A DNA stretch of 64,000 bases. Origin: Sphingobium sp. KCTC 72723. GTDB lineage: Bacteria; Pseudomonadota; Alphaproteobacteria; Sphingomonadales; Sphingomonadaceae. The notes beneath the pieces are model-generated. The model saw only the letters and a list, made by a program, of their open reading frames with translations. It searched no databases and had not been told where the DNA came from. This document shows, in pieces, positions 8,132 through 38,969 of the stretch; within the stretch, counting starts at the first letter, position 1, and each line of letters begins with the position of its first letter. Position numbers and translations under genes: made by a program. The stretch is taken from contig NZ_CP060388.1 of NCBI RefSeq assembly GCF_014280435.1, positions 1,054,001 to 1,118,000 of the forward strand. Direction: 5' to 3'.

Positions 8132-8890
8132 ATGGTGGACCAGTTTAACTTCAAGAAGATGATCAACGGCTTTCTCAGCGTGCAGATGGAGGATCAGTTA
8201 CATCTCCATTTGGAACAATGTGCCTTTGATCTTGGATTTCGACAGTTCGCCATGGGGCATCATGTCGACCTCTCAGGGCCTCCACAGGACGCCATTCGTA
8301 TCACCAACTATCATCCCGCATGGATCGAACGATCGCTCGGCGAAGGTTATTTCGTCTACGATCCCGTCCATTTGGCGAGCACCCGGACCGCGATGGGCTT
8401 TCTCTGGTCCGATGTGCCGACGATGATCCGGCTCACCCAGAAGCAGAAGATCATCCTCGATGCAGCCCGCCCCTATGGTCTCAGCGAAGGCTATACAATT
8501 CCTGTGCATGTTCCTGGAGAGTATCGCGGCACCTGTTCCTTCGGCGGGGACTCGCTGGAACGGCTTCGCCCCAACGCACTGCCGATCGCCAACATGATCG
8601 GGACTTATGCGTTCGAAGCGGCGCGCCGCATCATGCGAACGCGCCGCGGGATTCCCGAGGGTCTGGACGCGCTGCCCCAGTTGACCGAACGCCAGCGCGA
8701 CTCGCTCGTTCTGGTCGCACGCGGAAAAGGAGATCCGGAAATCGGTGTTCTCCTCGGAATCTCGGCGGCGACCGCGCATGAACATGTCGAGAATGTCCGC
8801 CGCGCCTATGGCAACGCGCAACGCCCGCTCCTGATCGCGCGGGCGTTGTTCGATGGTCAGATCTCCTTTTCGGAAGTGTTTGGACGCTGA
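8132..8890 (+). CDS. LuxR-type quorum-sensing regulator
   Basis: A 252-residue regulator with an N-terminal autoinducer-binding domain (about residues 15-165) and a C-terminal GerE-type helix-turn-helix (LTERQRDSLVLVARGKGDPEIGVLLGIS region, about 190-245, with TAHEHVENVRRAYG as recognition segment). The start ATG at 8132 is chosen because GGAG lies at 8121-8124; a longer open frame starts at 8033 but adds a Cys/Lys-rich stretch unlike LuxR. It is next to luxI, same strand, so it is the probable cognate receptor for the acyl-homoserine lactone made there. The helix-turn-helix lacks the usual KTVxxH form (here ATAHEHV), seen in other sphingomonad LuxR proteins. Confidence 0.88.
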   Translation: MVDQFNFKKMINGFLSVQMEDQLHLHLEQCAFDLGFRQFAMGHHVDLSGPPQDAIRITNYHPAWIERSLGEGYFVYDPVHLASTRTAMGFLWSDVPTMIRLTQKQKIILDAARPYGLSEGYTIPVHVPGEYRGTCSFGGDSLERLRPNALPIANMIGTYAFEAARRIMRTRRGIPEGLDALPQLTERQRDSLVLVARGKGDPEIGVLLGISAATAHEHVENVRRAYGNAQRPLLIARALFDGQISFSEVFGR

Positions 8891-8892
8891 CA

Positions 8893-8910
8893 ACCCCCTG
8901 ATCAGCGGGT
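8893..8910. promoter_or_regulatory. lux-box-like palindrome upstream of luxI
   Basis: ACCCCCTGATCAGCGGGT is symmetric at 16 of 18 positions with a perfect CTGATCAG centre. Its centre is about 66 bp upstream of the luxI start, which is where a lux box for a LuxR-activated promoter is expected. Binding is inferred from symmetry and place. Confidence 0.55.
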
Positions 8911-8967
8911 CGCAACCGGGGCGTCTTTGGTTGAGCTGTTCTTCCGCTAACCAGCGGGAGAAGCTCC

Positions 8968-9594
8968 ATGATTCAATATTTCGCAGGCCATGCCGGTCCG
9001 GGCGCCTCGGCTACACTCGACAATATGCACCGGGACCGCAAGCGCGTGTTCGTCGATATGCGCCAATGGGAAGTTCCAGTCGTCGATGGGCAATTCGAGA
9101 TCGATCAGTTCGACGGCGAGGATGCCGTCTATCTGATCAGCGCGGCGGAGGACGGCGAGCATTTCGGATCGATCCGTCTGCTGCCGACCGACCGGCCGCA
9201 TCTGCTGGGCTCGATCTTCCCACATCTGTGCGATGAGCCGCCTCCGTCCGGAGCCGATATCTGGGAGATCACCCGCGGCTGCCTTTCGCCGCGCCTGCGC
9301 GCGGCGGAACGGCTGCGTGTTCGGAACCGCCTTACGACGGCCGCGGTGCAATATGCGCTTCTGCATGGCATCACGCGCTTCGTCTGCATCGCGGATTCGG
9401 GATGGCTGACCCAGATCCTGACGCTGGGTTGGCACTGCGAGCCGCTGGGAGAGCCCCGGATGATTGCCGGCGCCACGACGGGCGCGTTGCAAATCCATAT
9501 CTCGGGGCGGACAATTGAGCAGCTCCGCCAAGCCGGCACCTATGCCTCGATTACCCTTCAATTCGGCGGCGTCTCAACGCCGCTTGCGGCGTAG
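8968..9594 (+). CDS. LuxI-family acyl-homoserine-lactone synthase
   Basis: A 208-residue autoinducer synthase that joins an acyl-ACP (or acyl-CoA) to S-adenosylmethionine to give an N-acyl homoserine lactone. The conserved LuxI residues are present: Arg24, Phe28, Trp34, Glu44/Asp46/Asp49, Arg70 (GSIRLLPT), Phe84, Glu100 and Arg103 (WEITRGCL). The start ATG follows a GGGAG site. It is downstream of luxR and followed 10 bp later by a phytanoyl-CoA dioxygenase-like gene, an order known in sphingomonads. Acyl-chain length cannot be read from the sequence. Confidence 0.92.
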   Translation: MIQYFAGHAGPGASATLDNMHRDRKRVFVDMRQWEVPVVDGQFEIDQFDGEDAVYLISAAEDGEHFGSIRLLPTDRPHLLGSIFPHLCDEPPPSGADIWEITRGCLSPRLRAAERLRVRNRLTTAAVQYALLHGITRFVCIADSGWLTQILTLGWHCEPLGEPRMIAGATTGALQIHISGRTIEQLRQAGTYASITLQFGGVSTPLAA

Positions 9595-9604
9595 GGAGGC
9601 GACC

Positions 9605-10516
9605 ATGCTCATGGAGCCCATCCCTGACCCAAGGGACATTGCCGTCGCCACATGGGTGGAAGCGCTGTCCGCCGATGGATATTGCATCATCCCCGATGCG
9701 ATCTCGCCTGTCGCGGTCGATGCTCTCGCCACCGATCTTGCGGATGATTTCGCCAGGACGCCACATGCGTCGGGACCATTTTACGGCGAATGGACCAAGC
9801 GCTTTCATGGCTTGCTGCGGCGATCACCCCACATGGACGCGTTCGTTCGTCACGCGCTCGTGCTGGAGATCGTCCAGAGCATCCTGGGGGCCGGCTGCGA
9901 CAGCATCCAGCTCAACCTGACCCAGGCGATCGAAATCCTGCCCGGCGGTCGTGTCCAGCCCCCGCACCGGGACCAGGATATGTGGCCGGTGCGGGCGCCC
10001 GGGGTCGAATATCTGGTCAATGTGATGTGGCCGTTCACGCCGTACACCGAAGCCAATGGCGCCACGCGCATTTGGCCGGGGAGCCATCTGCGACAGGACG
10101 AGATCCTCATCGATCCTGTAGAAGCGATCCCGGCCGAGCTTGATCCGGGGGCCGCCCTCCTGTTTCTGGGCTCCACGCTGCATGGTGGCGGCGCGAACCG
10201 AACGGCGATTTCGCGACGCGGCATGATCGTGAGCTACAGCCTGGGCTGGCTCAAGCCTTATGAATTGCCGTGGCTGGCTTATCCCCCCGAGGTCGCGCGC
10301 GCGTTCCCTGCCGGCCTCGCCGCGCTTGCGGGCTATCGGGCCCATCGGCCCAATCTCGGCACGTTCGAAGGGCGCTGTCCCTCGACACTGCTCGACGCTA
10401 AGGCCGCTGGCTCCCTTGGCGCTGTCGATGCACTGAGGCCGGAACAGGAAGCGCTGATCGAGCAATTTTATGCTGGAACATTGCCGGCCGGGCTGCGGCT
10501 GGCGGATCGGAGGTGA
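9605..10516 (+). CDS. PhyH-family Fe(II)/2-oxoglutarate dioxygenase (luxI-linked)
   Basis: A 303-residue double-stranded beta-helix oxygenase of the phytanoyl-CoA dioxygenase family. The metal triad is visible as His121-x-Asp123 (PPHRDQDMW) and His193 (TLHGGGANRT), with Arg204/205 for 2-oxoglutarate. Start ATG at 9605 with GGAGG just upstream; the longer frame from 9464 is inside luxI. It is translated 10 bp after luxI and 3 bp before the MarR-like gene, so all three probably share the LuxR-controlled transcript. The substrate is unknown; a role in altering the acyl-homoserine lactone or a metabolite under quorum control is a guess from position. Confidence 0.87.
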   Translation: MLMEPIPDPRDIAVATWVEALSADGYCIIPDAISPVAVDALATDLADDFARTPHASGPFYGEWTKRFHGLLRRSPHMDAFVRHALVLEIVQSILGAGCDSIQLNLTQAIEILPGGRVQPPHRDQDMWPVRAPGVEYLVNVMWPFTPYTEANGATRIWPGSHLRQDEILIDPVEAIPAELDPGAALLFLGSTLHGGGANRTAISRRGMIVSYSLGWLKPYELPWLAYPPEVARAFPAGLAALAGYRAHRPNLGTFEGRCPSTLLDAKAAGSLGAVDALRPEQEALIEQFYAGTLPAGLRLADRR

Positions 10517-10519
10517 CCC

Positions 10520-10915
10520 ATGAGCGGCGCCCTACCCAGCGTCATGGCAACGCTCGACCGGTGCGTGATGATCAGCCTTGCAGTTCGCGCGCACTGCCTC
10601 CTCGGCAACCGATTTGGCAGCGACCTGTTTTCGATGCCGGCTCTCAACATGCTGTTCGATCTGTATGCGCGCGAGGATCGCCGGCCCAGATCGTTGACCA
10701 GCCTTTGCGGCGCATCGAAGGCGCCGGCCCGGACTGCGTTGCGGATGATCCACCGAATGATCGAGCGTAATCTGCTCGTCCGGACACCCGATCCGCGTGA
10801 TCAGCGCCGGATCAATGTCGACCTATCGCCCGAGGGAACCGCGTTGCTCGACGCCTATTTCGATGGCCTTCTCGACATACTTGCGAAGCCCGAACTGAAG
10901 GAGTGTCCGCCATGA
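10520..10915 (+). CDS. MarR-like winged-helix regulator
   Basis: A 131-residue predicted DNA-binding protein. The winged-helix part includes SLTSLCGASKAPARTALRMIHRMIERNLLVRTPDPRDQRRI (about residues 56-97), and DPRDQRRINVDLSPEG is the wing form typical of MarR. It lies 3 bp after the PhyH-type gene and ends the luxR-luxI cluster; it may tune the quorum response or an unlinked target. The N-terminal third is not MarR-typical. Confidence 0.65.
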   Translation: MSGALPSVMATLDRCVMISLAVRAHCLLGNRFGSDLFSMPALNMLFDLYAREDRRPRSLTSLCGASKAPARTALRMIHRMIERNLLVRTPDPRDQRRINVDLSPEGTALLDAYFDGLLDILAKPELKECPP

Positions 10916-11189: not shown

Positions 11190-11744
11190 GTGCTTGACGC
11201 AATGCCGGAGCCGGATGATGGCGGCGGTCAGAGCACCGAGCCGGAGGGTATCGATCGCAAGCAGCTCGAGGCGGTCTATCGCTCCGAGGCTCCGCGCCTC
11301 AGACGACTTCTCAAGCGCAAAATCTGGATCGAAGACGACCGCAACGACATCGTCCAGGAGGCCTTCACCCGTCTTGCTGAATCCAAATCGGGTGCGGCGT
11401 CGCAAAACCCCGGCGCGTACCTGCAGGGAATTGTCCGGCACCTCCTCGCGGATAGGGTACGGCGATGGGCCAGGGCACGATCGCATGCCATATTGGATGT
11501 GGCGATCGGTCCAGAGTCGCTTGGCCCCGATGCGGCGGCCGAGATAAACCAGATGCGCGAGCGTTACCGCGCTGCCGTCGACACTCTCCCGCCGAAAACG
11601 CGTGAGGTCTATATGCTACACCGCGCGGAGGAACTGGAATATAAGCAGATCGCCGAGAGGCTTGGTATTAGTATCCGCACAGTGGAATGGCACGTGGCTC
11701 AGGCAATCATCCGGATCAGCAAGAGCATCAACACCGATGGGTGA
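11190..11744 (+). CDS. FecI-type ECF sigma factor of the lasso peptide locus
   Basis: A 184-residue extracytoplasmic-function sigma factor with region 2 (about residues 25-90, DDRNDIVQEAFTRL) and region 4 (about 125-180, LPPKTREVYMLHRAEELEYKQIAERLGIS region with TVEWHVAQAI). GTG at 11190 or ATG at 11202 could be the start; neither has a clear ribosome site. Its stop overlaps the FecR start by 8 bp. FecI-FecR-TonB receptor trios report ligand arrival at the outer membrane; here the trio leads into the lasso isopeptidase, so the probable signal is the lasso peptide or its uptake. Confidence 0.88.
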   Translation: MLDAMPEPDDGGGQSTEPEGIDRKQLEAVYRSEAPRLRRLLKRKIWIEDDRNDIVQEAFTRLAESKSGAASQNPGAYLQGIVRHLLADRVRRWARARSHAILDVAIGPESLGPDAAAEINQMRERYRAAVDTLPPKTREVYMLHRAEELEYKQIAERLGISIRTVEWHVAQAIIRISKSINTDG

Positions 11745-12807
11745 AAATGAGATACCGGGCAATGTGCCCCGGCAGGATCAGTTGCTCGAAGAGGCCTCCT
11801 TCTGGTTCGCGCGCATGCGCGGCCCGGACGCTGAACAGTATCGCGCGGATTTTGACGCCTGGCTCGCCCTCGGGGCCGTCCATCTTGGCGCCTATAATCG
11901 CGCCGGGGAAATTTTTGCCCTGGGCAAGTTTCTGGCCGAGTCGCCGAATGCGGCGGCCGACGGCGATGGCGGGGAGCATTATTCGGCACCCTCGCGTTGG
12001 CGCGGTTTGGCGATCCTCGCCAGCATTCTGCTGGTCGTTGGAATCGGCGCTTGGGTTGGACAGGACTCCTTCTCAACGATGTTTGGCAGAACCCCCGAGA
12101 TTGCTTTGGTGGATCCGGCAGCGGCGCCCGACGGCCAACGGCTCTCGACGGTGGGTGGCGCGCGTCGCAGCTTCAGGCTGGACGACGGCTCGACGGTCAC
12201 CCTGGACGCCGAAAGCGTTCTGTCGACGACGTTCGACAGCCAGCGGCGCGCGCTGCGCCTTGAGCGCGGGCGAGCGCGTTTCGAGGTCGCCCATGAAACC
12301 AGGCCCTTCGTCGTTCTTGCTGGTGGAGGAAGCGTGACAGCAAGGGGAACGATCTTCGACGTCATCATCAACCAGGAAAGCGGCGTGACGGTACGACTGT
12401 TGCGCGGCGCGGTGGATGTCGTGCGCCCCAGCGAAGCGGGCGACGCGGACCCAGACAAGCAGGCGACGACGCGCCTGGTCCCCGGGGAAGTGCTGAGCTT
12501 CGGTGACGGCCGTATGCCTGACCTTGCAGCGACGACGAAGGTCCGGGACGTTGTTGCAGGCGCTGCGTTGCCGGATATTCCCGTCGCCAAGGAGTTTGAC
12601 ATGGCGCCGTTGTCCCAGGTGATCGCCGAGGCCAATCGGGGTGCTGCAATCCCGATCCGCGTCGCCGATCCAGCGGTAGGAGCGCTCAAGGTCTCGGGTC
12701 GTTTCCGGGTCGACAACCCCGAGCTGACGGCCGACCGGCTCGCGGCCTTGTTCGACCTGAAGATCGATCGAACCCGTCACGATGAGATTCTGCTCCGCTC
12801 CCGATGA
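11737..12807 (+). CDS. FecR-type anti-sigma/signal transducer
   Basis: A 356-residue inner-membrane protein. An N-terminal cytoplasmic FecR segment (SFWFARMRGPDAEQYRADFDAWL, about residues 17-38, trimmed) is followed by one membrane segment (LAILASILLVVGIGAWVG, near 88-106), the periplasmic FecR domain (near 140-250, LDDGSTVTLDAESVL and RGRARFEVAHETRPFVV) and an STN-like C-terminal part that reads LADRLAALF-like. It should relay the receptor signal to the overlapping sigma factor. Start ATG at 11737 is the overlapping ATGGGTGA; longer upstream frames run inside the sigma gene. Confidence 0.87.
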   Translation: MGENEIPGNVPRQDQLLEEASFWFARMRGPDAEQYRADFDAWLALGAVHLGAYNRAGEIFALGKFLAESPNAAADGDGGEHYSAPSRWRGLAILASILLVVGIGAWVGQDSFSTMFGRTPEIALVDPAAAPDGQRLSTVGGARRSFRLDDGSTVTLDAESVLSTTFDSQRRALRLERGRARFEVAHETRPFVVLAGGGSVTARGTIFDVIINQESGVTVRLLRGAVDVVRPSEAGDADPDKQATTRLVPGEVLSFGDGRMPDLAATTKVRDVVAGAALPDIPVAKEFDMAPLSQVIAEANRGAAIPIRVADPAVGALKVSGRFRVDNPELTADRLAALFDLKIDRTRHDEILLRSR

Positions 12808-12912
12808 TAAATATGAAAGAAATATTGCAGTGGTGACCCCGTAGTTAGCATCTCTGCTGCGATGCACCCTGAAAACCTCGCCAAAATGGCGGGATTGAAA
12901 AGGGGGTAGATC

Positions 12913-15516
12913 ATGGGGTTAGATCGGAGCCGGGTACGGATTCAGCTTCTGGCGGCGGTTGCGATGAGCGCGATGACTATCGCGACACCCGCCAGGGCAG
13001 ATGGCGGTCAACGACAGGAGTATAATGTCGAGGCCGGGAATCTCGGTGACGCGCTGCGGAACGTCAGCCGCCTTTCGGGTCGCGAAATCATCTTCAGTGC
13101 AGAGGCGGTTAACGGCAAACGTGCCCCGCGCCTCCGAGGTCGCTACAACGCGGACGAGGCAGTGAAGGCGCTGCTTGTCGGCAGCGACCTCACCGCCGAG
13201 TTCAGGAAGGATGCGATCCTCATTCGGGGGCGATCAGACCCGTCGGGCGAAGTAGCAGACCGCCCGGCGGAGGATGCGGACATTGTGGTCACAGGCACTC
13301 ACATCCGGGGAGGTGAGTCCACGTCTCCCATGATCGTAGCGAGCAGATCGAAGATCCAAGACGAGGGGCTGACGGACCTTGGCGCATATGCGCGTACCCT
13401 CACTCAGAATTTCTCCGGGGGTCAGAATCCGGGTGTCGTTGGCGGCGGAGGCCAGGGCGGATCCGAAAATACCAACTCGTCGTCCGCGCTCAATTTGCGT
13501 GGCCTCGGCCCCGACGCCACGCTGACCCTCATTAATGGTCACCGAGCTGCATACGACGGAATCTTTCAGGGAATCGACCTTTCTGCCATTCCTTTAGCCG
13601 CGATCGATCGCATTGAAGTCGTCGCAGATGGTGCATCTGCCCTGTATGGCTCCGACGCGGTTGGCGGCGTGGCGAACATTCTGCTCCGCCGCGATTTTCG
13701 GGGGGCAGTGACATCGGCCCGCCTTGGAGCCGCAACCGACGGCGGCGATTTCGAACAGCAGTACAACATCGTTGCTGGAACTCGGTGGCGTAACGGCGGC
13801 ATCATGGTGGCAGTCGACTACAAGCACGTGACAGCAATCACGGCAGGTCAACGAGCCTATACGCAGGTTCAGGATAGCGATGCGACGTTACTTCCGCGCC
13901 AGGAGCAGATCGGCGCAGTTGTTTCGGGGCATCACCAGCTCGCGGCCGGGGTCCAGCTGGAATGGGACGGATACTTCAACAAACGCGACGCCGTCATGTG
14001 CAATGCCTTCCAGGCGACATCAAATTGCACAACGAATGGCGCCAAGATCGAGACGAGCGTCCGCTCCTATTCGATGACCCCGACATTTCGCTTCGAATTG
14101 CCCCATAGTTGGGAGTTGAGCCTATCCGGCACCTATGGTGGAAGCAAAACCGAGATATATTCCCCCACGTACAACCAAGGGAAAATCACGGCTACAACAC
14201 GGCCGAACTATAATAACACATTCACGACGATAGAAGCGGGAGCGAACGGCTCGCTGTTTCAGATGCCGGGCGGTATGGCACGACTAGCGCTCGGGATGGG
14301 ATATCGCTCCGTCAAGCTTGACGTGAACTCAATTCGAACGACCAGTACCGGCGCAAACACTCCAGTCTATCTCTTCAGCGCCAAGCGCGACATTTACTTC
14401 GGCTACTCCGAGTTATCTATACCGCTGGTGGGCGCGGACAACCGCTCCCCGCTGTTCGAGCAACTTCTGGTTACCGGAGCCGCGCGTTATGAGAATTACC
14501 GGGGTGTCGGCGATGTGCTTACCCCCAAGTTCGGGCTCATCTACAAGCCGACTACCGAGGTCACAATTAAGGGAAGCTGGGGAAAGTCGTTCAAGGCGGC
14601 GACGCTCTTCCAAGCGGGACAGGCGCGCGAAGCGTTTCTCGCTCCGGCATTCATCTTCTCACCGGGTAGCCCGGGCGGTTTGCCCGTCATTCTGATCGAT
14701 GGGGGCAACTCCACTTTGAAACCCGAACGTGCGACGACCTGGACCGCGTCGGTTGGCTACGCTCCGGGCTTTGCCGAAGGGCTCCGGATTGAGGCGAGCT
14801 ACTTCCACATCCTCTACAAGGATCGCGTCGCCGCGCCCATCTCGTCGATCGTTACGGCGCTCGATCCCATGTACGCGGACTTGTATGTCCTGAATCCCAC
14901 GCTCGAGCAGGTAAACTCCACCTTGGCGAGCCTGAACACGGGTCTCACAAATCAATCCGGCGGTCCGTTCAACCCGAGCGCGGTCGGGGCGATCGTCGAC
15001 AACTCACTTCAGAACATTTCCCGCCTCACGGCCCAAGGCATCGACCTTGCGATCGACTATCGGCATAAACTTGGGTCTCGTGACCAACTGCAACTGAATA
15101 TCGCTGGAAGTTATCTGGAAAGTGACCAGCAGCTCGCCGGTGGGATGCCTGTGGTTCAACGTGCGGGGATCATCTACAATCCGCCGCACTGGCGCGGTCG
15201 CGCCGCAGCGACATGGCAACGGGACAATTTCAGCCTGACCGGTGTCGCAAGCTACATCGGCGGGACCCTCGACAACCGATTCCAGCCCTCCGCCCGCGTC
15301 GGGTCATTCACCACTCTTGATGCCGTCGCGCGGATACAGACAAGCGAAGAGCGGGGCCTTCTCGGAGGCGTAGACGTCACGTTGGCAATCCAGAACATTC
15401 TGAACGAGAAGCCGGATTCGATCCGGACGACGAACCCGGCAGCATTTCCTTTCGATTCAACAAATTACTCCAGCATCGGCCGAACGATCAGCGTCACTAT
15501 TTCCAAGACGTGGTAA
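12913..15516 (+). CDS. TonB-dependent transducer/receptor for lasso peptide uptake
   Basis: An 867-residue outer-membrane receptor: signal peptide (residues 1-29, ending TPARA), STN secretin/TonB signalling domain (about 35-95, VEAGNLGDALRNVSRLSGREI), plug with VVADGASALYGSDAVGGV (a classic plug motif), and a long beta-barrel ending in an aromatic residue (SKTW). The STN domain marks it as a transducer that talks to FecR. It follows fecR by about 105 bp and its TAA overlaps the ATG of the isopeptidase (TAATG). In astexin-type clusters the receptor sits beside the isopeptidase, so import of the lasso peptide is the likely job. Confidence 0.85.
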   Translation: MGLDRSRVRIQLLAAVAMSAMTIATPARADGGQRQEYNVEAGNLGDALRNVSRLSGREIIFSAEAVNGKRAPRLRGRYNADEAVKALLVGSDLTAEFRKDAILIRGRSDPSGEVADRPAEDADIVVTGTHIRGGESTSPMIVASRSKIQDEGLTDLGAYARTLTQNFSGGQNPGVVGGGGQGGSENTNSSSALNLRGLGPDATLTLINGHRAAYDGIFQGIDLSAIPLAAIDRIEVVADGASALYGSDAVGGVANILLRRDFRGAVTSARLGAATDGGDFEQQYNIVAGTRWRNGGIMVAVDYKHVTAITAGQRAYTQVQDSDATLLPRQEQIGAVVSGHHQLAAGVQLEWDGYFNKRDAVMCNAFQATSNCTTNGAKIETSVRSYSMTPTFRFELPHSWELSLSGTYGGSKTEIYSPTYNQGKITATTRPNYNNTFTTIEAGANGSLFQMPGGMARLALGMGYRSVKLDVNSIRTTSTGANTPVYLFSAKRDIYFGYSELSIPLVGADNRSPLFEQLLVTGAARYENYRGVGDVLTPKFGLIYKPTTEVTIKGSWGKSFKAATLFQAGQAREAFLAPAFIFSPGSPGGLPVILIDGGNSTLKPERATTWTASVGYAPGFAEGLRIEASYFHILYKDRVAAPISSIVTALDPMYADLYVLNPTLEQVNSTLASLNTGLTNQSGGPFNPSAVGAIVDNSLQNISRLTAQGIDLAIDYRHKLGSRDQLQLNIAGSYLESDQQLAGGMPVVQRAGIIYNPPHWRGRAAATWQRDNFSLTGVASYIGGTLDNRFQPSARVGSFTTLDAVARIQTSEERGLLGGVDVTLAIQNILNEKPDSIRTTNPAAFPFDSTNYSSIGRTISVTISKTW

Positions 15517-17774
15517 TGACGACGGCCGCTCTCATCTGGGGGCACGGTCTCGCCATTGCGGGCGGATCGTTGTTATTGGGTTTACCCGCTGATGCGCAGT
15601 CGAAGGCTCCTTGCCCGTCTGTGCGAGCGGCGGGACCATCCGACGATAGCGCTCTCCGGCCACTAACCACGTCTGATCTTGCACGCCTCCGCGACATTGG
15701 TCCGCCAAGTAGCGACGACTTAGGGAGACCCATCCTCACCATCTCTCCGGACGGCTCGGCGATCGCGTTCCAGCTGACCGAGCCGAATCCCGAGCAGAAC
15801 CAATTCTGCATCGACTTCATTGTGTTGCCGCTCGAACCAGGCGCGATGCCTGTGAATGTGGATGGAGGCAATGAACTCATCCGGCTGTCACTGGAGATAC
15901 TCGGTCGGGCAGCGTCGCCGACCGGGATTGCAATGCCAATCACGCTTCGATGGACACCGGACAGCCGGTCTGTCTTGTATTTGAAGCGCGTGGGAGGAAA
16001 GACTCAGGTCTGGCGGGCAAGCACGGACGGGGCGAACGCGGTCCAGCTTACAAATGGTCCGGACGATGTAGATGATTTCAGAGTTACTCGCGATGGCACG
16101 GCAATTATATTCACGACGCGACCTGGTTTGCGCGTGGCCGAAAAGAGCTTTGCGCAGGAGGGTCTGACCGGCTTACGATACGACGACCGTTTCTCCGCGG
16201 CCTCGGGCAGCTCTCCGTTTACCCTTGGTCCCCTGCCCCGCGAATTTACTGCTATCGCGCTTCGGGACGGTCGCCCCCGGGTTGCTACGGACGCTGAAGC
16301 AGCTCTGCTCACCGCCCTCCCCACTGACGCACCGACGAATGCGATTGCCATTGAACGATCGACATCGGAGCGCGTCGCGTTCCTACGAACCCGTGCGCCG
16401 GCGAGCTTTCCGCCGTCAACTGAATTGGTCGCCGACGGCTTGGCTGGACGCAAGAAGGTTTGTGCGTACGAACGCTGCCGCGACATTTCGACACCGATCT
16501 GGTGGACGGCGGATGGCAAGCGCGTTCGCTATATGCGACGGGAGGGTTGGGGCAAGAGTCAGACCTCAATCTATGAGTGGACACCCGGATCAAGCGCGCC
16601 CCGGAGACTGTATTCCACATCGAATTACCTGGTCGAATGCCACCCTCTGACCGACGACCTTATCTGCCTCCAAGAGGAAGCTCGCAGCCCTCGGCGCGTC
16701 ATCCGGCTCAATCTCGCGACCGGTTCCACCAAGATCTTGTATGATCCTAATCCCCAGTTTCATGAACTGCAGCTCGGTCAGGTCGAGCGCCTTCAATGGG
16801 TCAATTCCTTCGGAATAGAATCATTCGGAGACCTGGTTTACCCGACCGGCTATATCGTAGGGCAACACTATCCGCTGATTGTCGTTCAATATCAGTCCCG
16901 GGGTTTCCTGCGTGGCGGCACGGGCGACGAGGTTCCGATCCAAGCTCTCGCGAATCGTGGATTTGCCGTGCTCAGCACGCAGAATCCGAGCTTCTTGCCT
17001 TTGATTGCAGGATCGAAGACGCCGAACGAGGCGGACGCAGCGCTCTTGCAGGATTTTGCAGGCCGCAGAAGTATTCTATCGTCCATCGAAACGGCTGTCA
17101 GAGCTCTTGTCGACCGCAGGATCGTTGATGGAGAGCACGTCGGAATATCCGGATTGAGCGATGGTTCATCCACCGTCCAGTTTGCCGCTCTCAACAGCCA
17201 TCTCTTCAAGGCGGGATCGGTGAGCGGCTGTTGTTGGGAGCCGGATCAAGATGCAATTCTCGGCCCCAGAATCGCGCAGATGTTTGCGAAAACCGGTTGG
17301 CCAAAAATGACTGAGACGCGGCCGGATTTCTGGAAATATATCTCGCTCGCTCAAAATCCTGACCGCGTGCGCTTTCCGATTCTGATGCAGATGTCGGATG
17401 ACGAATACACGCTTGCATTGTCGAGCCTTACTGCCCTTCGGCAGTCCGGCCATCCAGCCGACATGTTCATTTACCCGAACGAACATCATATCAAATGGCA
17501 GCCTAGCCATCGTCTCGCCGTGTACGACCGCAACGTCGCCTGGTTTGAATTCTGGTTGCGGAACATCATTCCTCCAAACGGGCGAGGCCGGGAGGAAGCG
17601 CTTCGGTGGCGCGATATGACCAATTCGCGCGTCGCTGGCAACCAGCGCGCCGAATGTCAGCCCGCACTATGCACATCCTGTATTGGGTCAGTTAACTTGC
17701 TGGCGCCCGTCCAGTGTCGAGCCCATGCTTCCGCATCGGCTAAGAGCAATAAGCGGACATATGAGTTTCCGTAG
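15516..17774 (+). CDS. Atxe2-type lasso peptide isopeptidase
   Basis: A 752-residue exported serine hydrolase of the prolyl-oligopeptidase type. A signal peptide ends near ADAQS (about residue 28), a beta-propeller region spans about 60-430, and the alpha/beta-hydrolase domain carries the nucleophile Ser548 in GISGLSDGSS and a late His in YPNEHHIKW. This form (GLSDG) fits lasso isopeptidases, which open the macrolactam ring of their own peptide. ATG at 15516 overlaps the receptor stop. The C-terminal tail (about the last 40 residues) reads into the 3' end of the convergent cyclase gene (118-bp antisense overlap) and looks non-conserved, as if a stop was lost. Confidence 0.85.
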   Translation: MTTAALIWGHGLAIAGGSLLLGLPADAQSKAPCPSVRAAGPSDDSALRPLTTSDLARLRDIGPPSSDDLGRPILTISPDGSAIAFQLTEPNPEQNQFCIDFIVLPLEPGAMPVNVDGGNELIRLSLEILGRAASPTGIAMPITLRWTPDSRSVLYLKRVGGKTQVWRASTDGANAVQLTNGPDDVDDFRVTRDGTAIIFTTRPGLRVAEKSFAQEGLTGLRYDDRFSAASGSSPFTLGPLPREFTAIALRDGRPRVATDAEAALLTALPTDAPTNAIAIERSTSERVAFLRTRAPASFPPSTELVADGLAGRKKVCAYERCRDISTPIWWTADGKRVRYMRREGWGKSQTSIYEWTPGSSAPRRLYSTSNYLVECHPLTDDLICLQEEARSPRRVIRLNLATGSTKILYDPNPQFHELQLGQVERLQWVNSFGIESFGDLVYPTGYIVGQHYPLIVVQYQSRGFLRGGTGDEVPIQALANRGFAVLSTQNPSFLPLIAGSKTPNEADAALLQDFAGRRSILSSIETAVRALVDRRIVDGEHVGISGLSDGSSTVQFAALNSHLFKAGSVSGCCWEPDQDAILGPRIAQMFAKTGWPKMTETRPDFWKYISLAQNPDRVRFPILMQMSDDEYTLALSSLTALRQSGHPADMFIYPNEHHIKWQPSHRLAVYDRNVAWFEFWLRNIIPPNGRGREEALRWRDMTNSRVAGNQRAECQPALCTSCIGSVNLLAPVQCRAHASASAKSNKRTYEFP

Positions 17775-19447
17775 TCCCCCATCGACGGAGTAAGCGCGCG
17801 TGCGATGGCGGCGCGGTCCACGATCCCCTGGGCCGACAGTATTCCGTCCATCAGGCGGTCTCTGATCGCGTCCCGGAAGTGGCCAAGGATCTGCGCCGCA
17901 AAGCCGTCTGGACCACCCTTTGTTCTACGGTGGACGATTACTGGAGGCAGTCGCTTCCCGAACGCTTCGCGGGCGACGGCCCGGTCCCTTCCTCCCGCGC
18001 ACGCCTCCCACGAGGGGATTCCGAGGCACAATTCTACAATTGGTTGAGAGGTGAGCGGATTTAGCACCGCTGGACCAATTTCCCGATCAAAGCCCTCGAG
18101 ATGGTTGTGCATCCGAAGGAGCATTGCAATGTGCGCGGCTTTGCCTGGGAGCGCTTTAGCCGGCGCGTCGAGCCACGGGTGATGGATCTCATGCTCGATA
18201 CCGGCCGGGACCACATCCGGCTCGAGAAAGGTTGAGTTGATCGGCCATCGGTAGTTGCATCCCGGCAGCCGAGCGATCCTGATCGCCTCTCTGACAGCCT
18301 GCGGGATGCTGCAACCCGTTAGGGTGCAGATATCTCGCACTGTCCGGACAAGGTTCCAGCCAAGACCTTCAACTCTAAACCGATCAACTATCGCGCGAGC
18401 GGAATGGCTGAGGAAAAACACATTGTCACCACCATTGCCGGTACAGAACGCATCGATTGAATGACGGTTGACCGCGTCCAAGACTTGTCTGTCATATGCA
18501 AGCGCCTGGCTGCGCCCGCCTGGTCGGGGAAGATGCGCCCCGACCGAACAATCGATATCGATGTTTTTCAGCAGATATGGCGCCTCAATGAGTTCGGCCC
18601 CTACTGCGCGGCACATGACGCGCGCATACTCGCGTTCGTCTCCAGACGGGTCGTCGGCCGACAGCGTTATGCAGGTCAGCTCGGCCTTCGTGGCGGCAAA
18701 GCAGTGCGCCAGGATGGAGGAATCCAGACCGCCTGAGACGCCGAGGAGAATGCCATTGAAGCACGATGCCCAAGCGCTCGTACAGGACTGGATCGTCCGT
18801 TCCAGTTGAGGCGGGTCTGACTTCGAATGTAATGGAGAATGCGGCGTCACATGGTCCCAAGGAGACCAGAGCGTAATGATGCGGTACCCTTCGCTCGACT
18901 CCAATGAGGCCGAGCCAGGCATGACTTGAGACACTCCATCCAGCGCCGTGGCGGCGAACGGAAGATCCGGGAGGTAGAGATGCCGGGCAAAAGCCTGCCA
19001 ATTGATCGAGGGCGTCAGGAGTCCGGCGGCCATCAAAATGGCGGGATCGGAACAAAACGCCGTAAATGTCGCAGTTCGGATCGTGTAGCACGGCATCCCA
19101 CCGGAGGGATCGCGGAGGACCATGATACCGTTGCTGTTCGGGATTATCGCGACGTAGGCACCCCAGTATTTTTCAATGAGTTTCGCGCCTCCCGATCTCT
19201 GAATTGCGAGGCCCTCATGCTCATCAATTTCCCGAATTTGATGAGCATGTCCAAATCGATGGAAGAGCTTCCCAGCGACCGCGCCATCGGGGAAACTGAT
19301 CACATCGCTCCCGTCAGGGGTCAGCAAAGCGAATTGCGGCCCCGAAGCCGAAACCACAAGCCCCGACATGTGAACAAACCGATCGGTCAGCGCCCGCGAA
19401 TCTGAAAGATCACGGAATACGACGAGAAGATATCGGAGCGGCTTCAT
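17657..19447 (-). CDS. Lasso peptide cyclase (asparagine synthetase-like)
   Basis: A 596-residue asparagine-synthetase-B homologue. It keeps the ATP-pyrophosphatase loop GVSGGLDSSILA (SGGLDSS at 238-244) and the second half motif NGGDNVFF, but lacks the catalytic N-terminal cysteine of glutaminases (MKPLRYL), as expected for lasso cyclases that adenylate the Asp/Glu side chain of the core and close the macrolactam with the freed N-terminus. It overlaps the upstream B gene by 4 bp and is convergent with the isopeptidase gene. Confidence 0.92.
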   Translation of the reverse strand: MKPLRYLLVVFRDLSDSRALTDRFVHMSGLVVSASGPQFALLTPDGSDVISFPDGAVAGKLFHRFGHAHQIREIDEHEGLAIQRSGGAKLIEKYWGAYVAIIPNSNGIMVLRDPSGGMPCYTIRTATFTAFCSDPAILMAAGLLTPSINWQAFARHLYLPDLPFAATALDGVSQVMPGSASLESSEGYRIITLWSPWDHVTPHSPLHSKSDPPQLERTIQSCTSAWASCFNGILLGVSGGLDSSILAHCFAATKAELTCITLSADDPSGDEREYARVMCRAVGAELIEAPYLLKNIDIDCSVGAHLPRPGGRSQALAYDRQVLDAVNRHSIDAFCTGNGGDNVFFLSHSARAIVDRFRVEGLGWNLVRTVRDICTLTGCSIPQAVREAIRIARLPGCNYRWPINSTFLEPDVVPAGIEHEIHHPWLDAPAKALPGKAAHIAMLLRMHNHLEGFDREIGPAVLNPLTSQPIVELCLGIPSWEACAGGRDRAVAREAFGKRLPPVIVHRRTKGGPDGFAAQILGHFRDAIRDRLMDGILSAQGIVDRAAIARALTPSMGDYGNSYVRLLLLADAEAWARHWTGASKLTDPIQDVHSAG

Positions 19448-20106
19448 ATGACCAGGATCGGCACAAACAGTCGGGCGTGCTCAGCGGTATCGTTGAGCAC
19501 AACGTCGCGGAGCTGGACCCAACTATGAGCCGAGAAGGGATTTGTGCGAACTCCGAAGATCAGCCGTGGCGCGATGCCATAGGCGTGCATCATGGACATC
19601 AGAGCAAGGGATCTCACCAGACATCGATCCGCCGACGCAAGGACCAGGCTGGTACGTTCAAAGGCGGCAGAAATCTTGGCGATTTCTGCGTTCGGCAACT
19701 GGCGTGAGCACCTCCGCACTCGCGCCGACCGTTCAGCGATCTTGAATTTGACTGCCGCTAAGGAAGTGTAGCGGAGCGAAAGTGCGGCGGAGATTTGATA
19801 TGCGATCGCGCGCGCGACTTGAAACGCCGATGGATCAAGGGAAGCCCATGCCCCAATCTCGCTTATCGGGATCGGTGGGGGGACGCCTGCTGCAATTCTT
19901 TCCGACATTTTGTCCGGGACAAGCACCCCTCGAGCAACGAGCGTGTCGAGTTCGTGATGTGCGGTGCCGGAGCTGCCTTCAATATATCCCGCAAATGCCT
20001 GCTCCATAGGGTCGGACAAGCAGAAGTATTTGTTTGCATCGACGTCGAGGAAGATTGATCTCCCGCCAGATCGACAATGATAGAGATTATCCCGGAGCCG
20101 ATACAT
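19444..20106 (-). CDS. Lasso peptide B1-B2 fusion: leader-binding domain plus leader peptidase
   Basis: A 220-residue protein. Residues 1-75 look like the PqqD-type RiPP recognition element (IFLDVDANKYFCLSDPMEQAF, trimmed) that binds the leader. The rest is the transglutaminase-like B2 protease with Cys162 (DRCLVRSLAL), His194 (FSAHSWVQL) and Asp206 (VVLND). It would cut the leader after Lys23 of the precursor. Proteobacterial lasso clusters usually have this fused form, as here. It lies 59 bp after the precursor stop and overlaps the cyclase by 4 bp, giving the order A-B-C on one strand. Confidence 0.9.
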   Translation of the reverse strand: MYRLRDNLYHCRSGGRSIFLDVDANKYFCLSDPMEQAFAGYIEGSSGTAHHELDTLVARGVLVPDKMSERIAAGVPPPIPISEIGAWASLDPSAFQVARAIAYQISAALSLRYTSLAAVKFKIAERSARVRRCSRQLPNAEIAKISAAFERTSLVLASADRCLVRSLALMSMMHAYGIAPRLIFGVRTNPFSAHSWVQLRDVVLNDTAEHARLFVPILVI

Positions 20107-20165
20107 GCTGAGTTCCCCCCGGAATCAAACGGGCGCGCGACCTTGCGGAAGCGCGCCCAAGGTGG

Positions 20166-20303
20166 TCAGTCGTCCGACAGGCCGGGAAGGCCCTGCTGCT
20201 GGCCGGCGCTGTCATTGCTGACAATGGAGCCGCCCTTGGTCTCCTCGGTGACGGCGCCGAGGTCGATCAGATGGTCCTCGCGATGTTCGTCGATGCTCTG
20301 CAT
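20166..20303 (-). CDS. Lasso peptide precursor
   Basis: A 45-residue precursor. The leader is 23 residues (MQSIDEHREDHLIDLGAVTE then ETK) with the LIDLG box and the conserved Thr at position -2 (Thr22, ETK before the cut, like the LTK site of the microcin J25 precursor). The core is 22 residues: ring segment GGSIVSND and tail SAGQQQGLPGLSDD. Gly1 to Asp8 gives an 8-residue macrolactam, and the GLSDD end matches sphingonodin/syanodin-type cores. ATG at 20303 has AGAGGAG a few bases upstream. By hand, the threaded product has a monoisotopic mass near 2082.9 Da. The ring closure and plug residues are predicted, not shown. Confidence 0.9.
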   Translation of the reverse strand: MQSIDEHREDHLIDLGAVTEETKGGSIVSNDSAGQQQGLPGLSDD

Positions 20304-20417
20304 GACACGCTCCTCTTGATCCGCCGCAACAATTCGCGGCAGTTCACAGTTAGCGCGCTCCAATTGTTCACGGACCTAAATATATCTGGACAAAATGGCG
20401 CGATATCCGCGAGTTGC

Positions 20418-20435
20418 CAGTGATAAGCTTCACTG
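20418..20435. promoter_or_regulatory. Inverted repeat upstream of the lasso precursor
   Basis: CAGTGA (20418-20423) and TCACTG (20430-20435) flank TAAGCT, forming an 18-bp dyad about 115 bp upstream of the precursor start and 40 bp past the end of the GntR-type gene. It is a candidate operator for one of the two adjacent regulators; no binding evidence. Confidence 0.4.
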
Positions 20436-20475
20436 ATGGAAACAGAACCCGGCTTCGCGCGACTAAGTGTCTGGA

Positions 20476-21117
20476 TTATTGTTCCAATGCCTCTTGAGCC
20501 AAGATTTGGATAATTTTCTGTTGATGGACGATTCTCCGCTCATGGTAGGATTCAATACGCCGATGGATGCTCTTATGGACATCGGCCACAGCGGAATTTG
20601 TCATTGTGCGGAGCTCCTTGGCCGCTTCTTTGACCTTGGCTGCGCCAGCGACTCGCGGATAAAATAGACGATCATTGATCTGTGCGACGGTGGCGACGGC
20701 CTCCGGATTTCCTGTGGATTCGGCAAGTGCGAGGAAGATCGATCCGGTAAGTGTCGCGATCTCAACGGGGGTGGTGCCGAATCCGGAACGCGAGAAGCGG
20801 TCCAGAGTCTGGCTGAGAACCGATTTCTTCATTTTCTGGGCCAAGCTCAACAGCAGATGTGCATTCCAGGCATAGAGGTGGATCAGCACTAGCGGGGGCG
20901 CGAGCGTGACCCGAAATCCGCCGGCGCTATCTGGCTCGACCAAGCCCTCTCCCATCAGTCGACAGGCTGCTTCTCGCACGGGTGTTTTACTCGACCCATG
21001 GCGGTCTGCGATGTCCTGGATTTCGAGCTTCTCGCCAGCGTGAAACAGTCCCGCCAGATAATCTGCCTTGAGTGCGCGATAGACGCGCTCTTGCGTGATC
21101 GGATCGGCGGCAGACAT
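20476..21117 (-). CDS. GntR-family regulator near the lasso precursor
   Basis: A 213-residue regulator with an N-terminal GntR winged helix (ITQERVYRALKADYLAGLFHAGEKLEIQDIADRHG region, residues 6-41, then SKTPVREAACRLMGEGLVE) and a helical FCD-like ligand domain. The start ATG at 21117 lies 2 bp after the stop of the XRE-type gene, so the two are co-transcribed. A longer frame starts at 21156 inside that gene. Its place directly upstream of the lasso precursor suggests control of the cluster, but this is inference. Confidence 0.8.
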   Translation of the reverse strand: MSAADPITQERVYRALKADYLAGLFHAGEKLEIQDIADRHGSSKTPVREAACRLMGEGLVEPDSAGGFRVTLAPPLVLIHLYAWNAHLLLSLAQKMKKSVLSQTLDRFSRSGFGTTPVEIATLTGSIFLALAESTGNPEAVATVAQINDRLFYPRVAGAAKVKEAAKELRTMTNSAVADVHKSIHRRIESYHERRIVHQQKIIQILAQEALEQ

Positions 21118-21119
21118 CA

Positions 21120-21536
21120 CTAGCTCGCCCCTGCTGCGAACGCCGAGGGCTGCCATCGGGGCGTGAGGGCGTTGGTCAACTGGCTGAGATTTCGCTCGGC
21201 GACCACTTCAACGCATAGCCGCTCGAGATCGCAAAGATCGCCGGCCGCCAGCTGCCTTGGAAAGCACATGCGCTGGCCCGCGAACAGCAGGGGGATGAGA
21301 ATATGGCCGGTCGACAGACCAAGCCGATATGCACAGCGCAGATGATCATCGAGCTTCGACTTCGGATTTCCGGATTCGATCTCGCGCAGCCAGCGGACTC
21401 CCATACCGAGATTCCTCGCCAGCTCCCGCTGCGTGATACCTATCTTCTTCCGTGCTTCCTCAATCTGCCGTCCCGACTGTTCTTTCACATACGAGAGCGG
21501 TGCGTCAGCAACGGAAGCCGCGCAATCCAGCGACAT
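21120..21536 (-). CDS. XRE-family helix-turn-helix regulator
   Basis: A 138-residue protein with a Cro/C1-type helix-turn-helix near residues 22-65 (EARKKIGITQRELARNLGMGVRWLREIESG in parts) and a C-terminal helical part of unknown role. The HTH is of the HipB-like short form. It is co-directional with the GntR-type gene and followed by it after 2 bp. It may act with that regulator on the lasso operon. Confidence 0.75.
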   Translation of the reverse strand: MSLDCAASVADAPLSYVKEQSGRQIEEARKKIGITQRELARNLGMGVRWLREIESGNPKSKLDDHLRCAYRLGLSTGHILIPLLFAGQRMCFPRQLAAGDLCDLERLCVEVVAERNLSQLTNALTPRWQPSAFAAGAS

Positions 21537-22156: not shown

Positions 22157-22164
22157 CAAATGTC
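22157..22164. repeat. Target-site duplication, left copy (CAAATGTC)
   Basis: These eight bases directly precede the left end of IS copy 1 and match the eight bases that follow the right end of IS copy 2 (33951-33958). The inner flanks (23591-23598 GATAACCC; 32517-32524 GAGCAAGC) match neither each other nor this repeat. Confidence 0.85.
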
Positions 22165-23590
22165 GGTCGCGTCCCAGGACGTGGTGTAAGATGTGAGGTT
22201 AGCGCTGCTGGCCGGACGCGCGCTTTCAATATTGCGCTTTAGCGTCCGGCCAGTAGCGCGGGTGGTCACCGTGATTTTCGGATAGGCTTGGGTTGCGAAG
22301 CTCGAACCTGGAGAACCACGATGACCGATTCCATGATGCACTTGCGCGCGTTGGTCGAGAAGGCCCCTGACGCAGATATTTTGCGCGATATGATCTCGTT
22401 TGCCGCCGGGCGGCTGATGGAGATGGAAGTAGGCGGCCTGACGGGCGCTAGCCACGGCGAGAAGTCGGCCGACCGGCTTGTTCAGCGCAACGGCTATCGC
22501 GAGCGTGACTGGCAGACCCGTGCTGGCACAGTCGAACTGCGCATCCCTAAACTGCGTAAAGGCAGTTATTTCCCAGGCTTTCTGGAACCGCGTCGGATGG
22601 CCGAGCGGGCACTGACGGCAGTCATTCAGGAAGCGTATGTGCAGGGCATCTCCACGCGTTCTGTCGATGATCTGGTCAGAGCGCTTGGCATGGATGGCAT
22701 CTCGAAAAGCCAGGTCAGTCGCTTGTGTGAAGAGCTCGACGAGAAAGTGCATGCCTTCCTTGATCGCCCGATTGAGGGTGACTGGCCGTACCTTTGGATC
22801 GATGCCACTTACGTCAAAGTCCGCCAGAATGGCCGGATCGTCTCGGTCGCGGTGATCATCGCGGTGGGCGTCAACAGCGATGGACGTCGTGAAGTGCTGG
22901 GCATGGATATCGGTCCCTCGGAAGCAGAACCGTTCTGGACCGCCTTCCTGCGCAAGCTGGCACGCCGTGGTCTGCGCGGGGTGAAGCTGGTGATCTCCGA
23001 CGCCCATGAAGGCATCAAGGCTGCAGTCTCCAAGCTGCTGTGCGCGAGCTGGCAGCGCTGCCGCGTTCACTTCATGCGCAATGCGCTGGCCCATGCCGGC
23101 AAGAGCGGCCGCCGGGTCGTCTCAGCCTTTATCGGAACCGCCTTTGCCCAAGAAACACCCGAGGCAGCCAGCCAGCAATGGCGCTCCGTTGCCGATCAGA
23201 TGCGATCCAAACTCCCAAAACTTGCGGGGTTGATGGATGATGCTGAATCTGACGTCCTTGCCTACATGACGTTTCCCAAGGAACACCGCGCCAAGCTTCA
23301 CAGCACAAACCCCATCGAACGGCTCAACGGCGAAATAAAACGGCGAACCGAGGTCGTTGGCATCTTTCCAAATGAAGCCGCGATCACGCGCTTGATCGGT
23401 GCCATCCTAATGGAGCAGAGCGACGAATGGGCTGTTCAGCGCGCACGCTACATGACGCTTGAAACGATGGCCCCGCTAAGCGATAATCCCATCGTCACGC
23501 TATCGGCTGTACCCGGCGCGTGATCGGCTCAAACTGACGCCGAAAATCGCGGTGGCCTCAAAAACCTACACCACGACCTGGGACACGATC
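22165..23590 (+). mobile_element. IS256-family insertion sequence, copy 1
   Basis: A 1,426-bp element, apparently identical base for base to copy 2. Its left end GGTCGCGTCCCAGGACGTGG and the complement of its right end GATCGTGTCCCAGGTCGTGG are imperfect terminal inverted repeats (17 of the first 20 positions agree). One transposase gene fills it. It has no duplication of its own flanks. Confidence 0.9.
22321..23523 (+). CDS. IS256-family transposase, copy 1
   Basis: A 400-residue mutator-type (MULE-like) DDE transposase. The catalytic triad is visible: Asp161 ([10 protein letters not shown]), Asp227 (VISDAHEG) and Glu333 ([15 protein letters not shown], matching the family NxxER form). Start ATG at 22321 follows GGAG about 8 bases upstream; an upstream in-frame start at 22288 is less likely. 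The protein is identical to that of the second copy, as expected for two recent copies. Confidence 0.95.
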
Positions 23591-23704
23591 GATAACCCAG
23601 CGATGGAGAGCTTCTTTTCATCGCTCAAACCTGCCCTGCCCGCAACATTCAATACCCGCAATCAGGCACGGGAAGACGTATTCGATTATGTCGATAGCTT
23701 ATGA
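23591..23704 (+). pseudogene. Remnant of an IS3-type transposase (OrfB end)
   Basis: The frame reads DNPAMESFFSSLKPALPA then TFNTRNQAREDVFDYVDSL and stops. This matches the C-terminal region of IS3-family OrfB (…NAxMESFFxxLK…R…ARxDVFDYIExFYN…). The 5' part is cut off by the IS256 element and a frameshift after FDYV explains the early stop (a +1 shift continues as AYDVHYGCNRIHR, similar to the YN-RRH box). It is a relic of an earlier insertion inside the present cargo. Confidence 0.6.
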
Positions 23705-23750
23705 TGTCCACTACGGATGCAATCGGATCCATAGGCTTCGAAAGGAAATC

Positions 23751-24560
23751 TCATATAGTCTGGCTAACATTCGTCGAACCGGGTTTAGCACAATCCGCTT
23801 GGGTTCGTGCGACATCGATCATTCCAAGGCCCATCGCGAGAGCAACTGCATGCGCGCGGTTAACGGCGTCGAGCTTCTGATTTATTCGCTTCAGATAGAT
23901 TTTCACTGTTTCCATGGAGATCGATAGGATAATCGCGATTTCGCCCGCAGTCTTGCCCTGTGCGGACCAGTTGAGGCATTCGAGTTCGCGCGAACTTAGC
24001 GGCTGTGGCGGCTGGATGCTGCGCTCAAACCGACGGCCAATGACGTTATGGAAATAGTTGGCAATCAACTTGAAGACCGGCTTTGTCGCCTGAGCTGTGG
24101 CGTGCCAGCCGTCGCCGCTAATTGGTTCGCCAACCGCAGAGATATACGTGAACTGACCGCGATGACCGATGCCGAGCGTCAGGCCCCGATGGAGACCTAA
24201 ATCTGACGAATAATTGATGCAGTCGCGTTCCGCTTGCGTGAAGCTCTCGCTGCGTGACCGCACTTCATCCCAATCGGCCTCGCCGTTCAGAAACGCGGTG
24301 TGGAAATAAGTATCGTGTTCGCTATGGCGGGCCCAGTCCCGATCCCAATGTGTCGGAAAACCGCGGGTCTTTACAGGCACCGCCGCCCAGCGCCCGTTGG
24401 CGTGCTGGGCACTCCGTGTCCAGCCATAGGCGAGCTGGGGAAATCCGAGCCCGACAATTGTTTCATGGAGTACCTCGATCGCTTCGTCGAATGAACGAGT
24501 GCGATCGAGGCTCTCTACAAAATCAACCACAAAGGCAAGATCACTGGATTGGAGAAACAA
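23751..24560 (-). CDS. LuxR-type regulator in the transposon cargo
   Basis: A 269-residue regulator. The N-terminal half (about residues 10-175) looks like an autoinducer-binding domain (FDEAIEVLHETIVGLGFPQLAYGW region, DYFHTAF-like stretch HDTYFHTAF), and the C-terminal part has a GerE helix-turn-helix (LSSRELECLNWSAQGKTAGE then IAIILSISMETVKIYLKRIN). No luxI accompanies it inside the transposon, so it is a LuxR solo that may sense another ligand or the lactone made by the luxI at 9 kb. It lies about 170 bp beyond the end of the TonB receptor gene, on the same strand. Confidence 0.85.
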   Translation of the reverse strand: MFLQSSDLAFVVDFVESLDRTRSFDEAIEVLHETIVGLGFPQLAYGWTRSAQHANGRWAAVPVKTRGFPTHWDRDWARHSEHDTYFHTAFLNGEADWDEVRSRSESFTQAERDCINYSSDLGLHRGLTLGIGHRGQFTYISAVGEPISGDGWHATAQATKPVFKLIANYFHNVIGRRFERSIQPPQPLSSRELECLNWSAQGKTAGEIAIILSISMETVKIYLKRINQKLDAVNRAHAVALAMGLGMIDVARTQADCAKPGSTNVSQTI

Positions 24561-31024: not shown

Positions 31025-31027
31025 TGC

Positions 31028-38934: not shown

Positions 38935-38969
38935 TGCGCCGACCGACCATCCTCCAAGGAGCACCAGCA

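Follow-up and report, generated by a model that had tools for sequence, protein, structure and literature searches.

What does a complete lasso peptide module do beside the transfer genes of a conjugative element? The question is raised by Sphingobium sp. KCTC 72723 (RefSeq assembly GCF_014280435.1), in which a stretch of 64,000 nucleotides (contig NZ_CP060388.1, positions 1,054,001 to 1,118,000 of the forward strand; hereafter the window, with positions counted from its first letter) holds a lasso locus at 11190-21536 and F-type transfer (tra) genes further right. Our reading, to which we give a probability of about 0.65, is that a benenodin-family module of the isopeptidase type is resident on F-type elements and that its specificity unit is exchanged as a block under the same regulators. 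Gene content, slot, exchange and borders are read directly from the comparison of loci. The genes are given below, with protein identities to the sister locus L061 (on the element of genome G073).

11190-11744, + strand: FecI-type extracytoplasmic function sigma factor (PF08281/PF04542); constant frame; 99% identical to L061
11737-12807, + strand: FecR-type anti-sigma factor (PF04773, 64.6 bits); constant frame; 85%
12913-15516, + strand: TonB-dependent transducer with STN (aa 59-105), Plug (aa 137-253) and barrel (aa 385-829); residues 1-313 mostly constant frame, residues 314-867 exchanged block
15510-17774, + strand: AtxE2-type lasso isopeptidase (NF033523, 770.9 bits, cut-off 400); exchanged block; 41%
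17657-19447, - strand: lasso cyclase C (PF00733); exchanged block; 39%
19444-20106, - strand: leader peptidase B (NF033537, 80.7 bits, cut-off 33; PF13471); exchanged block; 33%
20166-20303, - strand: precursor A, with leader at 20235-20303 and core at 20169-20234 (NF033522 lasso_benenodin, 45.9 bits, cut-off 33)
20476-21156, - strand: GntR regulator (PF00392); constant frame; 89%
21120-21536, - strand: helix-turn-helix (HTH) regulator (PF01381/PF13560); 99%
36247-55720, + strand: F-type transfer genes TraE, TrbI/TraB-like, TraC, TraU, TraN, TraF, TraH and TraG (Pfam)

A first-pass annotation, made from the letters of the window, had claimed a complete lasso locus in a conjugative setting; the first claim is confirmed and the second supported: all the genes that it named are open and in place, and the models for TraE, TraC, TraU, TraN, TraF, TraH and TraG are all over their cut-offs in the window. 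The precursor exceeds the NF033522 cut-off, and the cluster is therefore a member of the described benenodin family. The TonB receptor has an STN domain (37.1 bits, cut-off 28.4) and lies beside FecR and FecI; by virtue of this domain it is of the signal-transducing type. Residues 50-704 of the isopeptidase align to the AtxE2 structures, with the serine of GLSDG and the NEHH motif kept (GLSDG reads GLADG, with alanine, in AtxE2 entry 5txe). What had been called a B1-B2 fusion is a single B protein of 220 aa, the C-terminal part of which matches the protease domain; the N-terminal ~100 aa matched no model, so we only infer that they form the leader-binding domain.

Residence beside the transfer genes

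We searched 94 genomes of the genus Sphingobium, with counts of TraE, TraU and B2 that concern the listed matches only. TraE and TraU fall into a low and a high class, split by eye at a gap in the scores, and the window belongs to the lower one. Benenodin-family precursors gave 104 matches in 53 of the 94 genomes. A listed window-class TraE is found within 20 kb of 54 of these matches, as compared to ~1.6 expected at random (assuming 4.7 Mb per genome), and one match is near a TraE of the other class (~0.7 expected). When TraE and TraU are taken together, 57 of the 104 precursors are within 20 kb and two more within 50 kb, one is near the other class, and 44 have no listed tra gene within 50 kb. 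Fifty genomes have a window-class TraE among the listed matches, and 43 of them also have a precursor, vs 10 of the 44 others.

Seen from the transfer genes, 54 of the 79 listed window-class TraE loci have B and GntR upstream, and the orientation of B is the same in all 54. The distance from B to TraE has a median of 4278 bp (quartiles 4093-4366) in these loci, the largest being that of the window's own locus (16141). Another 18 of the 79 loci show at least 12 kb of upstream sequence and no lasso genes, and 7 show less sequence and no lasso genes. GntR is found in all 54 lasso-bearing tra loci and in none of the 25 others; HTH is found in all 54 and in 15 of the 18 informative lasso-less loci. 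The lasso module is a standing resident of one F-type conjugative element family of sphingomonads.

The same family is found among plasmids. TraC identities in the plasmid collection show a step, with nine records at 80-90% and the next at 39% and lower. A lasso cyclase lies 8.2-8.5 kb away in seven of the eight listed plasmids with TraC above 80% (the seven being from Sphingobium and Novosphingobium), the exception being that of Rhizorhabdus wittichii DC-6; no copy of the window module at megablast level was found in this collection. Plasmid pCHQ1 of Sphingobium indicum UT26S, which is typed MPF_F, shares with the window the order LuxI, PhyH, MarR, FecI, FecR, TonB, C, B, A, GntR, HTH, DsbC, TraL, TraE. 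It differs in its core, GMGSGSTDQNGQPKNLIGGISDD, which we take to be sphingonodin II, and its cyclase and isopeptidase are 36% and 38% identical to those of the window. We note that the isopeptidase of pCHQ1 (locus L046, 21650-23772) is unlisted in the plasmid gene table; tblastn finds it at 71253-73418 of the record. The annotation of pHR1a gives the same gene order as pCHQ1 from TonB through tra, with no FecI/FecR listed beside TonB.

Across 396 genomes of the order, TraC of at least 83% identity occurs 15 times, in 13 genomes of three genera. According to the listed matches, seven of these 15 loci carry the lasso genes in the usual slot and five have none on the contig. In G190, G212 and G259 a B2 match lies 23-29 kb from TraC, on the opposite side of the tra genes; these loci (G190:C18, G212:C1 and G259:C13) belong to another genus, and the placement of lasso B2 in them is perhaps independent.

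Exchange between closely related elements

The window and L061 have identical TraE proteins (100%), and their DNA is similar over 11190-13853 (84%) and again over 20231-21536 (87%). Between the two lies the following feature.

13854-20230, unstranded: exchanged block vs L061, holding TonB barrel, isopeptidase, C, B and core; no DNA similarity at E 1e-10

The left border falls near residue 313 of the TonB protein, beyond STN and Plug, and identity to L061 is 70% over residues 1-313 and 45% over residues 314-867. As the core starts at 20234 and similarity resumes at 20231, the right border lies within two codons of the junction between leader and core. Five loci have similarity across the leader of A, and in three of them it begins at 20229-20233. 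The ends of the left high-scoring segment pairs cluster at 13672-13865 in 27 cases, a clustering that may come in part from general conservation of the plug.

For a wider comparison we took the 44 loci in which none of the 11 genes is missing (946 pairs); the window's own locus (L060) was excluded from the correlation and pair analyses and compared with L061 separately. Mean pairwise identities among lasso-bearing loci are 0.73 for TraE, 0.74 for TraL, 0.61 for DsbC and 0.44 for HTH, and 0.28-0.41 for the seven module proteins (FecI, FecR, TonB, isopeptidase, C, B and GntR). The identity matrices fall into two groups: TonB, isopeptidase, C and B (the inner genes) co-vary with r of 0.91-0.95, and FecI, FecR and GntR (the outer genes) with r of 0.83-0.93, as compared to 0.61-0.68 between the groups. 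Among the 32 pairs with outer identity of at least 80%, inner identity is at least 80% in 16, below 55% in 15 and intermediate in one. None of the 946 pairs shows the reverse, i.e. inner identity of at least 80% with outer identity below 55%.

The same borders are found within the 15 swapped pairs, in which identity profiles drop once inside TonB and again where the core begins. The N-terminal part of TonB averages 0.68 and the barrel 0.40 (the split being set at residue 310 of the open frame of L061, which starts ~25 residues before the likely start). In the 12 swapped pairs with precursors, identity is 0.62 for the leader, 0.32 for the ring and 0.11 for the loop, vs 0.95-0.99 for the same TonB and precursor segments in the 17 other pairs (16 with precursors). 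By eye the swapped pairs sort into two sets of elements, to which the window's own group is added.

In the peptide pherotype loci comQXPA and agr, the peptide, its maturation enzyme and part of the receptor vary together under more constant regulators. A similar pattern is seen here: peptide, maturation enzymes and receptor part are exchanged together under constant regulators, in pairs that are not independent of one another. Unlike those loci, the window has a lasso peptide, an outer-membrane TonB transducer, a dedicated isopeptidase and a conjugative element as its carrier. We read the swapped block as a probable ligand-specificity unit that feeds constant regulators.

The peptide, its relatives and the surrounding element

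The precursor has 45 aa, with a leader of 23 aa and the core GGSIVSNDSAGQQQGLPGLSDD; its translation shows Thr at -2, Gly1 and Asp8. The core minus one water has a computed mass of 2082.945, in agreement with the ~2082.9 Da given in the first-pass annotation. The gene had been called easily missed by gene finders; the curated NCBI model NF033522 now detects it. The newness of the core stands in part: its letters were found in none of the open-access papers searched, but two clusters came up in a protein search, each 100% identical to the window precursor (5 member sequences on 9 contigs in all).

A ring closed from Gly1 to Asp8 had been predicted, and related cores support it. The 49 precursors collected beside tra loci give 35 distinct cores, with Gly1 in all 35, Asp8 in 33 and Gly fifth from the end in 33. 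The pattern used demanded Thr at -2; if more than one Thr was eligible, one giving an acid at position 8 was preferred. It missed 7 of the 54 lasso-bearing loci. Inspection found a plausible precursor in six of these seven (none in L075), and these add five distinct cores, all with Gly1 and Asp8. This conservation supports the view that Gly1 closes onto Asp8 in the window core as well, as predicted from its letters; benenodin-1 has a ring of eight residues, as stated in the accessible text of PMC13352647.

Some modules and genomes hold more than one core. L098 and L124 each have two precursors with different cores within a single module. The window's own chromosome carries one more lasso module beside tra genes, different in type (C1:2645733-2662817; L037, L050), whose core, GAGVGNADSLGTEIRQMGIADD, is also found in elements of G085 and G005.

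The gene order around isopeptidase clusters is known from earlier work. The astexin-2/-3 and benenodin-1 clusters (with AtxE2 and BenE) have, like the window, an isopeptidase of this family, GntR before A, a TonB receptor and a sigma/anti-sigma pair, an architecture that was described and likened to siderophore systems in the available part of PMC9266682. The sphingocin cluster of Sphingomonas BPH is also close: according to the accessible portion of PMC11006600, it has a 45-aa precursor, a 22-aa core with Gly1, Asp8 and a GLSDD end, and an isopeptidase and TonB receptor divergent from A-B-C. It differs in its core (GPGFINNDGVGGKLPFAGLSDD) and in a mutant phenotype on phenanthrene, and conjugation genes go unmentioned in that portion of the paper. 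The cluster in the window is a new member of a known lasso family. What is new, as far as open-access searches reach, is the standing place in a conjugative-element family together with the exchange of the specificity block; within the accessible text of the open-access literature, including PMC8600333, PMC6771000, PMC12670498, PMC7549694 and PMC13352647, we found no mention of conjugation genes or block exchange in connection with isopeptidase-type lasso clusters.

The module is flanked by further genes of the element and by an insertion.

8033-10915, + strand: LuxR, LuxI, PhyH-like dioxygenase and MarR (Pfam); element genes left of the module
22164-33950, unstranded: 11.8-kb insertion between HTH and tra; absent from L061

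The insertion resembles a composite transposon. It is bounded by perfect direct repeats of 1427 bp (22164-23590 and 32524-33950) and encloses a TonB receptor, a DMFA2_C protein, a LuxR-type regulator and a RidA-like protein. L061 is continuous at this site, with a 12-base overlap, and the larger distance from A to TraE in the window is due to the insertion. The transfer genes sit on a contig of 4,372,398 bases, and a tyrosine-integrase frame (39.5 bits) spans the left edge of the window. No relaxase was found among 10 flank proteins scanned. As for the ends of the element, no tRNA was found in the window or in 80 kb of flanks, and the search for direct repeats gave only repeats of 26 and 21 bp.

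Possible defence genes follow the tra operon (57271-63361 of the window, and L035:1981-3249). They include a HEPN/nucleotidyltransferase, a SIR2-like protein and an SMC-like ATPase that scores 103.8 bits on the LmuB model; an ABC-3C CTD7 protein lies to the right of them.

Proposed working and its rivals

Enzyme activities, the identity of the ligand, the signal path and the targets of FecI and GntR are carried over here from known families. On this footing, B would cut off the leader and C would close Gly1 onto Asp8; the TonB receptor would bind and take in the element's own lasso peptide, and its STN domain would signal via FecR to FecI, which would raise receptor and isopeptidase. The isopeptidase would open or clear the imported peptide, and GntR would set the expression of the precursor. 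Known isopeptidases cut only their own threaded peptide, according to the part of PMC9266682 that is accessible. Core, B, C, isopeptidase and receptor barrel would make up one specificity unit. One of its borders lies within tonB, beyond the part for the signalling and plug domains, and the other at the leader/core junction or close to it; replacement of the block would join new ligand parts to the same regulators. Joint exchange of barrel and core, with FecR and FecI left in place, is as expected if the lasso peptide is the ligand of the receptor and the regulators are generic. The transferable signal or scavenging loop suggested in the first-pass annotation is a plausible reading.

Regulation was examined in the promoters.

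20371-20412, - strand: conserved paired motif in the A promoter, candidate regulator site; upstream of A in five loci including the window

Many loci have paired A/T-rich near-palindromes (of the TTATAAG type, or GATATCGCGCCA...GATATAT) ahead of A, and these are candidate sites. An operator common to the A and TonB promoters was rejected as a general feature, as only 2 of 38 loci beat all 30 base shuffles, and a weak resemblance of the two promoters is confined to the window's clade.

Several observations weigh against a resident, block-exchanged module of this kind. Without a general A/TonB operator, a closed self-inducing loop is unsupported, and the module has no exporter gene. The N-terminal part of TonB, which we count mostly with the constant frame, is just 70% identical between the window and L061 and averages only 0.68 in the swapped pairs. 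In two of the five loci with leader similarity, the similarity continues beyond the junction (L106 to 20151, L049 to 20126). The 15 swapped pairs derive from nine loci, and since they share loci, independent exchanges are few. Lasso genes are absent from 18 of the 72 informative elements. Outside the genus, tra genes of the window's class were found on the usual side of 2 of 52 informative isopeptidase loci. This last figure comes from 60 of 80 out-of-genus loci, 52 of them informative (at least 12 kb of sequence), with a check for window-class tra only, over ~18 kb to one side of the isopeptidase; partial isopeptidase matches in G190 and G327:C24 were excluded from the 80. A tra linkage as a general rule for isopeptidase clusters is rejected by it, and the linkage therefore belongs to the element family and not to isopeptidase clusters generally.

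The strongest competitor, to which we give somewhat less than an even chance, takes the module for ordinary cargo. On this view insertions would favour the slot ahead of HTH and tra, and the lasso genes would be one load among several, helping the host by siderophore-like scavenging or substrate use, with no link to transfer. The elements that lack lasso genes fit this, and so does L055 (G083:C1:541797-561697), in which a cobalamin-salvage operon with its own TonB receptor occupies the lasso slot between MarR and HTH. Isopeptidase is found in 70 of the 396 genomes and in 17 of 84 genera of the order (E 1e-100), mostly away from window-class tra, and a B2 mutant of a related cluster lost the use of phenanthrene, as reported in the available text of PMC11006600. 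Cargo would not by itself lead one to expect the single orientation in 54 of 54 loci and the narrow distance to TraE, nor that replacement of the inner block leaves GntR, FecI and HTH in place beside the tra backbone. An apparent empty site between MarR and HTH in L057 was dropped, as the MarR match is on the other strand.

Less probable, and in our view rather unlikely, is self-recognition related to mating, in which the peptide would gauge nearby carriers of like elements or mark holders and so tune transfer or exclusion. Spelled out for this family, and just as doubtful, the element would make its own lasso type, sense it via the matched barrel and the shared STN-FecR-FecI path, clear it by means of the matched isopeptidase, and use it to gauge the carriers around it and so adjust transfer or exclusion, with the type changing by a swap from barrel to core. 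Such a role would suit the standing place beside tra together with regulators, the exchange of types as a unit, and the LuxR/LuxI genes that adjoin the module in the window. The distribution of types argues the other way. Among co-resident elements, 0 of 26 pairs are equal in type at C identity of at least 60%, as compared to 0.72 in shuffles, and at C identity of at least 50% there are two equal pairs vs 1.23; avoidance of equal types is thus not significant beyond chance and was rejected. Also, no operator common to module and tra was shown, and most of the out-of-genus isopeptidase loci are without window-class tra on the usual side.

More doubtful again is that the peptide is a narrow-spectrum inhibitor, from which the isopeptidase protects the producer, with variety driven by the resistance of neighbours. 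The cores are variable, and astexin-1 is said to have narrow-spectrum activity, but the known isopeptidase-containing lasso peptides other than astexin-1 are without antimicrobial activity (both according to the accessible part of PMC9266682), and the missing export gene speaks against it as well. That no exchange took place and inner genes simply evolve faster than outer ones is very improbable and already disfavoured, since, although inner genes are among the most divergent (mean of 0.28 for B and 0.34 for C vs 0.73 for TraE), close elements fall into two states (16 pairs of at least 80%, 15 below 55% and one between), FecI at 99% stands beside C at 39%, and the borders in the DNA are abrupt.

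The biological role of isopeptidase-type lasso peptides is called enigmatic in the accessible text of PMC9266682. The exchange of a specificity block on resident modules separates what changes (core, B, C, isopeptidase and receptor barrel) from what stays constant (FecI, FecR, in part the N-terminal part of the receptor, GntR, HTH and tra), and with both named, the question of the role of these peptides becomes testable. The swapped elements are natural chimaeras for studying lasso specificity.

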